A stretch of DNA of 64,000 nt. Source: Vreelandella subglaciescola (GTDB taxonomy: Bacteria; Pseudomonadota; Gammaproteobacteria; Pseudomonadales; Halomonadaceae). The stretch is from NCBI GenBank assembly GCA_030454225.1, contig JAKDRW010000001.1, positions 62,001 through 126,000 of the forward strand, written 5' to 3'. The position numbers and the translations under genes are program-made. This document shows positions 42,861 through 45,136 of the stretch, one piece after another. The notes under the pieces are model-generated. The model was given only the letters and a program-made list of their open reading frames with translations, had not been told where the DNA came from and did not search any database. Every line of letters starts with the position of its first letter. The first letter of the stretch is position 1.

Positions 42861-43970
42861 ATGCGCAAGATTTTCGTGATGTCTGTACTGGCGTTGGCCA
42901 TTGCCGGCTGTTCCAACCAGCAACATTCTCGTCCTCAGGTGCGCGATGTCAGCGATGCCCAGCAGGCGGTGAAAAACACGCCGCAATACGCCGTTAAAGA
43001 GGGCGATACGCTCTACGGTATCGCTTGGGAGCACAACCTCGACTACCGCGAGCTGGCCGCGCTCAATGACATTGATCCGCCGTACAATATTTTTCCCGGT
43101 CAGGAAATTCGCCTGCGCAAAGGCGGACAGGCCGACGGTGCTCGCCAGGTAGCGCAGGCCGACTCGGGCGCTGACAAAGGGCAAAGCGGCGCTGGCGGTG
43201 CTGTGGCCACTGGCCTTGGCCAGGCTAACGCCGGCAGCGGCGGCGTGGAAACCGACGGTCAGCAGGGTGACGACCAGCAGGTCGACTGGCTGCTGCCCGA
43301 CGAGCCGGCAGACGCCTCTTCTGCGTCACCGTCGGATAGCGATACGTCGGACAAGGATAAAGACGCCGACGATAGCGCGGAAAAGACCGTCGTGGCTCAG
43401 CCTGAAAAATCGGGATCTGACGCCTCTCAGTCTGATAAGAAGGCAGCGAACAAGAGCGACGCCGACAAAACCCAGGTCGCCAAGGCGAAAGCGCCAAAGG
43501 CCAGCGAAGAGGCCGCGCCCAAGAGCGCCAAAAAAGATCAGCCGGGCACCGCCAAAGAGCGCGAAAAGCGTGCCGAGCGCAGCTACTCACCGACTAAAGA
43601 TATCGCCTGGCAGTGGCCGGTAGAGGGTAAGATAACCGGGCGTTTTGATGAAGATGGCGGCATCACCGCCGGCATTGATATTGCCGGTAAAAAGGGCCAA
43701 TCTGTCAAAGCGGCCGGTCCCGGTATCGTGGTGTATGCAGGCAGCGGCGTGCGCGGCTACGGCAATCTGGTGCTGCTCAAGCACAACGACCAGTTTCTGT
43801 CGGCGTATGCGCATAACGACAGCCTGAACGTTAGCGAAAACGACGTGATCGAAGCAGGGGAAGTGATTGCTACCATGGGTGATAGCGATTCGGAAAACGT
43901 CAAGCTGCACTTTGAGGTGCGCAAAGACGGTGAGTCTCAGGATCCGCTGACCTATTTGCCTTCGCGCTAG
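42861..43970 (+). CDS. nlpD: Lipoprotein amidase activator NlpD
   Basis: 369 residues. Lipoprotein signal to Cys17 (LAIAGC), LysM domain at about residues 43-86, a long low-complexity Asp/Ser/Lys/Ala linker (about 90-245), and a C-terminal M23/LytM domain. The zinc ligands of active LytM enzymes are absent (GGITAGIDIAG in place of the H...D motif), as in E. coli NlpD, which activates AmiC rather than cutting peptidoglycan itself. Located directly before rpoS; in E. coli the main rpoS promoter lies in nlpD. Confidence 0.95.
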   Translation: MRKIFVMSVLALAIAGCSNQQHSRPQVRDVSDAQQAVKNTPQYAVKEGDTLYGIAWEHNLDYRELAALNDIDPPYNIFPGQEIRLRKGGQADGARQVAQADSGADKGQSGAGGAVATGLGQANAGSGGVETDGQQGDDQQVDWLLPDEPADASSASPSDSDTSDKDKDADDSAEKTVVAQPEKSGSDASQSDKKAANKSDADKTQVAKAKAPKASEEAAPKSAKKDQPGTAKEREKRAERSYSPTKDIAWQWPVEGKITGRFDEDGGITAGIDIAGKKGQSVKAAGPGIVVYAGSGVRGYGNLVLLKHNDQFLSAYAHNDSLNVSENDVIEAGEVIATMGDSDSENVKLHFEVRKDGESQDPLTYLPSR

Positions 43971-43987
43971 AACTTTTGGCGCGGGTG

Positions 43988-44155
43988 CCTCCTCCCTGAG
44001 AGCGTCGATATAACGACGCGATAGCGGGTTAACGGCGGCCTATATAACAATAACGGCGGGGCATAGCGCTCGCCACCACCCGCGTTTTTTGCCCCGACGG
44101 CGCTACCTTTAGCACCGCTGTCGGGTAGCAGGCGCAAGGTGTGTCAGGGAGGAGG
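43988..44155 (+). promoter_or_regulatory. rpoS leader with self-inhibitory antisense element
   Basis: CCTCCTCCCTGA at 43988-43999 is perfectly complementary over 12 nt to TCAGGGAGGAGG at 44144-44155, which contains the rpoS ribosome-binding site. Between the arms are a GCGTCG/CGACGC hairpin (44002-44019) and a 10-bp stem with one G-U pair (44093-44102 with 44116-44125), which could bring the arms together. The layout resembles the E. coli rpoS leader, whose upstream strand hides the start until small RNAs and Hfq open it. Inference from complementarity. Confidence 0.7.
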
Positions 44156-44161
44156 GTAACA

Positions 44162-45136
44162 ATGAGCATATTAGGACAGGATCCGCGCGGGGAATTGAAC
44201 ACGGTCGAAGAAGTGCTGGCCGAGCTTGATGACAAGCAGGTCGCGGCCGAAGAGGAGGCCTTTGAAAAAGCCCTGGGGCGCGAAGCCCGGCCGCACAAGC
44301 GGAGCCTCGATGCGACTCAGATATACTTGAATGAAATCGGTTTTTCGCCGCTGCTGAAGCCGGAGGAAGAGGTTTATTACGGCCGCCTGGCGCGCAAGGG
44401 CGATCTGCTGGGCCGCTCGCGGATGATCGAGTCCAACCTGCGGCTGGTGGTCAAGATTGCCAGACGCTACCTGAACCGCGGGCTGACGCTGCTGGATTTG
44501 ATCGAGGAGGGTAATCTGGGGTTGATTCGCGCAGTCGAGAAGTTTGACCCCGAACGCGGCTTTCGGTTTTCGACCTACGCCACCTGGTGGATCCGCCAGA
44601 CCATCGAGCGGGCGCTGATGAACCAGACTCGCACGATTCGCCTGCCGATCCACGTGGTCAAAGAGCTCAATATCTACCTGCGCGCGGCGCGCGAGCTGAC
44701 CCAGCGGCTGGACCACGAGCCCACGGCGGAAGAAATTGCCGAGCATCTGGATAAGCCGGTCGCCACGGTGAAAAAAATGCTGGGCCTCAACGAGCGCGTC
44801 TCGTCGGTGGATTACCCCGTCGGCGGCGACAGCGATAAACCGCTGATCGACACCCTGGCCGATGATGACGAGGCCGGACCCGAGGCGTTGCTGGTCGACG
44901 GCGATGTTAAAGAGCACGTCGACCACTGGCTGGGCTCGCTTGCCGAAAAGCAGTGCGAAGTGGTCGTACGCCGCTTTGGCCTGCGCGGCCACGAAGCCGC
45001 CACGCTTGAGGAAGTGGGCGCAGAGATCGGCCTGACCCGCGAACGCGTGCGCCAAATTCAGGTCGAGGCGTTGAAAAAACTGCGCCGCCTGCTGGAAAAA
45101 CAGGGCTTGTCGCTGGATGCCATCTTTGAAAGCTGA
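44162..45136 (+). CDS. rpoS: RNA polymerase sigma factor RpoS (sigma-38)
   Basis: 324 residues. Region 1.2 begins [12 protein letters not shown]; region 2 carries [34 protein letters not shown] (two blocks), region 3 [11 protein letters not shown], and region 4 [21 protein letters not shown]. It is the general stress and stationary-phase sigma factor. ATG 44162 follows the strong GGGAGGAGGG, which is itself the target of the upstream complementary strand. The longer frame upstream would place the ribosome-binding site inside the gene. Confidence 0.97.

Follow-up and report, generated by a model that had tools for sequence, protein, structure and literature searches.

A predicted self-inhibited rpoS leader in a halomonad, with a 12-bp helix on the ribosome-binding site and a conserved AAY repeat

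In E. coli the Shine-Dalgarno (SD) sequence of rpoS is held in an inhibitory stem of the 5' leader and released by small RNAs with Hfq, as stated in excerpts of two papers (PMC6762075; PMC6215814); the openers of this stem are DsrA, RprA and ArcZ, each with Hfq. The window (the whole stretch of DNA analysed here, 64,000 nt) carries an rpoS gene in whose leader a first-pass annotation had noticed a perfect 12-nt complement of the SD region, and from which it had proposed an enteric-like sealed leader in a likely halomonad. The named close relatives are Vreelandella and Halomonas, in agreement with the latter assignment. The locus thus raises the question whether this leader locks its own ribosome-binding site and, if so, what would open it. 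The features to which the analysis refers are as follows.

42861..43970, + strand: nlpD-like gene upstream, a 369-aa open reading frame, in the E. coli nlpD-rpoS order
43988..43999, + strand: 5' arm of the seal, CCTCCTCCCTGA, with 12 perfect pairs to 44144-44155
44002..44019, + strand: predicted hairpin within the loop (fold)
44046..44053, + strand: AACAATAA, an AAYAAYAA repeat, candidate Hfq distal-face site, predicted unpaired
44055..44074, + strand: GC-rich predicted hairpin directly 3' of the AAY repeat, as in relatives (fold and alignments)
44144..44155, + strand: 3' arm of the seal with the rpoS SD sequence, paired with the 5' arm in the fold
44162..45136, + strand: rpoS, matched in 273 of 275 family genomes (E <= 1e-100)

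The nlpD-like gene owes its name to the first-pass annotation and to its order with rpoS as in E. coli. Both 12-mers are present where they had been placed: CCTCCTCCCTGA starts 18 nt past the nlpD stop and is the exact complement of TCAGGGAGGAGG, the rpoS ribosome-binding region, which ends 6 nt before the rpoS ATG (44162). When 43960-44190 is folded, the minimum-energy structure (-99 kcal/mol, z -3.07, with 0 of 200 shuffles as low) has all 12 seal pairs, and the same 12 pairs are found on folding 43760-44260 (z -2.52, 2 of 100 shuffles as low). The stems expected between the arms also appear, at 44002-44019, 44021-44045 and 44055-44074, with a large one from 44077. A further hairpin is predicted at 43961-43985, across the nlpD stop codon and just 5' of the 5' arm.

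The 12-nt complement in the window's rpoS leader exceeds chance. No perfect complement of the last 22 nt is longer, and 12 is reached by none of 20,000 dinucleotide shuffles, the best being an 11-nt complement reached once; the corresponding value is at most 7 in all other 115 of the 116 extracted leaders and at most 9 in the other 56 of the window's 57 open reading frames. These leaders come from a subset of the 273 family genomes that have rpoS; no leader was obtained from 16 loci (including seven genus members, L031-L037), and 123 leaders yielded 116 of at least 95 nt for the shuffle and perfect-complement tests, among them six whose starts are mis-set and two from other families. By pairing energy, a measure that counts wobble pairs and bulges too, the excess over shuffles is weaker (p 0.010 for the window leader with 200 shuffles; p 0.0035 for its first 45 nt only, with 2000 shuffles), in part since a G-rich SD pairs well with whatever C-rich stretch is at hand. 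Of 18,230 window positions scanned, 13 have a 12-nt complement about as far away, a count that necessarily includes the rpoS site, so that such inverted repeats arise at somewhat less than 1 per 1000 positions in the window. The seal is thus real and unusually strong, and it is probably functional.

Model transcripts suggest what the helix would do to the ribosome-binding site. For five with 5' ends at 43500-43988 the SD is unpaired with a probability of 0.001-0.026; this rises to 0.44 for a start at 43994 and to 0.64-0.83 for four with 5' ends at 44000-44100. In the model, then, a 5' end no later than 43988 buries the site and one from 44000 on leaves it mostly open, a computed dependence on 43988-43999 that amounts to predicted sequestration of the SD by an arm farther upstream in its own mRNA. 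Pairing of the seal arms is computed at -25.6 kcal/mol, as against -12.6 kcal/mol for the 16S tail with the SD, and exceeds the ribosome's own pairing in stability. By partition function, the SD pairs with the leader's first 45 nt to a greater extent in the window than in any other leader folded (1.00; mean 0.25); values of 0.83 and 0.67 are obtained for two close relatives, G261 and G283, and of 0.76-0.97 for four leaders in another clade of the genus (L016, L025, L147 and L148).

The temperature switch that had been suggested for this seal finds no support in the model. rpoS is a stress gene, and a thermosensor in which heat melts the seal would suit it, but the model SD is unpaired at 0.013 at 37 C and only 0.030 at 65 C, where the seal pairs are still 0.932 probable. 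The SD helix of an RNA thermometer would melt in the physiological range, and the modelled one does not; a temperature switch at this seal is unlikely from the folding model, and a heat-melted lock is to be regarded as very improbable. The energy set used in folding assumes 1 M salt, so these values speak to temperature and not to the salt switch that was also suggested at first pass.

How far the seal extends beyond this genome was evaluated among relatives. In a tree of 45 rpoS genes the window groups with G009, G261, G283 and G288 with support 100/100 (their leaders being L004, L050, L047 and L048, respectively), the G009 gene being flagged for a letter make-up unlike the rest of the tree. 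The perfect 12-nt seal is found in the window genome only among the leaders extracted. G283 pairs GGUUC-A-GGGG with CCCC-C-GAACC (leader positions 17-37, as in the window) and G261 pairs UCAGGGG with CCCCUGA (leader positions 8-31); both thus pair their own site at about the same place by letters other than the window's, and the pair matching 93-150, read by eye, is G-C in these two where the window has A-U. Neither is significant alone (p 0.11 for G283, p 0.15 for G261). G288, the sister of G283, shows no comparable seal (p 0.95). In G009, TCCCCGCGC stands against GCGCTGGGGG together with a competing local hairpin; the pairing is no better than in shuffles (p 0.60) and its seal is ambiguous. 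The combined shuffle p for the five clade leaders is 0.024, and 0.32 without the window. An alifold consensus of the five does not show the seal, probably, we think, through failure of the alignment to register the arms of such divergent leaders. Compensatory changes, which the first-pass annotation had proposed to look for in related nlpD-rpoS gaps, stand only in part: they are present only in G283 and G261, and most family leaders are without the complement. The sealing helix, present in two of the four clade relatives and with no family-wide signal, appears to be confined to some members of the window's clade, the covariation being suggestive but not conclusive. The best explanation is that the 12-bp perfect form is a local strengthening, of which two clade relatives carry a weaker, differently spelled version.

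Swap tests lead to a similar picture. Their premise is that coevolving arms would make the first part of each leader a better partner for its own SD part than for those of other leaders. Nine choices of segment give p values between 0.0027 and 0.116 for 8 lineages, six of them not above 0.05; with the window removed, six choices give 0.0075-0.26, the values varying with segment choice. Own partners beat swapped ones in 11 leaders (p 0.008), and p is 0.031 for 108 leaders (the 116 minus the six with mis-set starts and the two of other families). In a less redundant set of 51 family leaders p rises to 0.11-0.16; on removal of the window, L047 and L050 it is 0.57-0.64, with no family signal. A family-wide seal is likewise not backed by the SD-pairing shuffle test, in which only 4 of 116 leaders reach p < 0.05; this test has little power, because the experimentally established E. 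coli rpoS stem also fails it (p 0.81), although in the E. coli fold the SD region is indeed paired with sequence upstream.

A second element of the leader, which the first-pass annotation had missed, is far more widely shared. The nine bases left unpaired in the fold at 44046-44054, within the seal's loop, contain the AAYAAYAA repeat; AAY repeats of this kind are Hfq distal-face sites. The motif is found in 74 of 108 family leaders versus 2.23 expected from shuffles, and in all five members of the window's clade. The window copy is the only match in 64 kb on both strands, with 1.83 expected, so that taken alone it is unremarkable; what is remarkable is its conserved place. The leader thus contains an A-rich motif of the Hfq-binding type, a candidate site as judged from its letters. 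The element is apparently doubled in L023, L027-L030, L160-L162 and others of that group (e.g., GTCATATAACAATCGTCACATAACAATA). Outside the family, 13 of 60 loci (L082-L141, mostly Pseudomonas) have AAYAAYAA in the nlpD-rpoS interval, and in 12 of these 13 it sits at the rpoS start codon and not in mid-leader, the exception being L093.

In the aligned groups a hairpin lies just 3' of the repeat. For another genus of the family, represented by 20 leaders, 95.8% of the cells of this hairpin are paired and its covariation score is 0.453 versus 0.237 in shuffles (0 of 500 as high), well above slid controls; two-sided changes occur at 4 of 6 pairs in the same genus (20 leaders), a number reached by 29 of 500 shuffles, and further pair types show no excess (7 versus 7.2 in shuffles). 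This sample comprises 20 of the 21 listed leaders of that genus, L171 being omitted for an insertion; the hairpin alignment of that genus took in 27 leaders. Rfam gives nothing in the window leader at the gathering threshold and nothing at E <= 1 in 11 loci, with two chance-level matches at E 5-6; it is uninformative here because the E. coli rpoS locus, one of the 11, is also without a match. As read from the leaders themselves, an AAY-plus-hairpin rpoS leader is widespread in the family, and this is the broader result of the analysis.

Candidates for the factors that would act on the leader were searched for as well. Hfq was found in 58 of 61 genus genomes searched, and in 53 of 53 good ones; it was not found in the window's own genome, which is 72% complete. 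In that same genome CAGGGAGGAGG has 20 matches at up to one mismatch (6 for a reversed control pattern), two of which are the rpoS arms themselves, and the search gave no clear small-RNA candidate. On inspection of 17 of the 18 non-rpoS loci (L225 was left out), five of the 17 matches (L228, L230, L234, L235 and L236) lie outside long open frames with a start. A promoter consensus scan returned one weak promoter-like match, at 43066-43093 inside nlpD (0.4 expected), and none in the rpoS leader.

The main rival to a functional lock is a start or cut in the A-rich loop, which would free the site too. If the main rpoS mRNA started or were cut downstream of 43999, for example in this loop, the seal would mute only the long nlpD read-through transcript, and a short, unsealed mRNA would make RpoS. 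The open site of model transcripts from 44000 (0.64-0.83 unpaired) is what this explanation needs, and by eye CTATATAAC (44040-44048) looks like a -10 box; however, the promoter scan has no match in the leader, and at this place the relatives keep AAY repeats, several with AATAATAATAACGG or AAAACAACAACAACG, and do not have TATAAT. The conserved A-rich element is accordingly disfavoured as a -10 box, the AAY repeats rather than TATAAT being what is kept and no promoter having been scored, and a downstream start or cut as the principal source of RpoS is considered unlikely.

The inverted repeat could also be a neutral accident of a GC-rich leader, with ribosomes arriving after nlpD translation, or fast folding of the inner hairpins, keeping the site open enough. 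This explanation draws on the absence of a family-wide signal, on the fact that, of the two relatives with the highest RpoS identity, one is without a seal, and on the 13 of 18,230 window positions with such a complement; on the other hand, 0 of 20,000 shuffles match the observed helix, the arm coincides exactly with the SD, and weaker versions stand at about the same place in two relatives. It is judged improbable, to about the same degree as a downstream start.

The preferred reading, held with moderate confidence, is that of a self-inhibited rpoS leader of the enteric-like kind, with a 12-bp helix on the ribosome-binding site, probably opened with Hfq; the sealed architecture proposed at first pass is supported by prediction. 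Beyond the fold, we infer the transcript start, Hfq binding and the opener. The main rpoS transcript would start upstream of 43988, and the nlpD-rpoS leader would fold back so that the 12-bp helix locks the ribosome-binding site and holds RpoS synthesis low. Hfq would bind the AAY repeat in the loop and, under stress, Hfq and a small RNA pairing to the 5' arm would open the lock; alternatively, Hfq alone or cleavage in the A-rich loop may do so. More tentatively, and with belief leaning against rather than for it, halomonads may have their own Hfq-controlled rpoS leader (AAY repeat plus hairpin) to which some lineages added a lock, that of the window having been tightened to 12 perfect GC-rich pairs, so that RpoS translation there would depend wholly on an opener, for instance cleavage of the loop or a matching small RNA.

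The kind of leader is known; the group in which it is predicted here is new, and its layout differs. Like E. coli, it has the nlpD-rpoS order, an SD in a stem with the upstream arm about 100-150 nt away, and an A-rich repeat, which in E. coli is AACAACAAGAAG at -196. In E. coli, however, 62 nt separate nlpD from rpoS and the upstream arm, at about -106, falls within nlpD, whereas the window arm lies 18 nt after nlpD; the E. coli stem is interrupted, whereas the window helix consists of 12 perfect pairs; and the E. coli A-rich repeat is outside the stem, whereas the window AAY repeat is inside the loop. In P. aeruginosa, according to excerpts of the source, the small RNA ReaL silences rpoS by pairing with the SD in trans (PMC6215814); the control predicted for the window is likewise post-transcriptional and at the rpoS SD, but ReaL represses in trans and the window SD would be sealed in cis. 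Among titles and abstract openings of the Halomonas rpoS small-RNA and untranslated-region literature, no paper on a Halomonas rpoS leader was found.

Halomonads are used in salt-tolerant biotechnology. The self-sealed rpoS leader is a textbook case in enteric bacteria, and in P. aeruginosa, as far as the excerpted source describes it, a small RNA silences instead; a halomonad version would help to decide whether the lock has one origin or several. The conserved AAY repeat is a concrete, testable candidate Hfq site, and the AAY-plus-hairpin leader makes regulation testable beyond the window genome.
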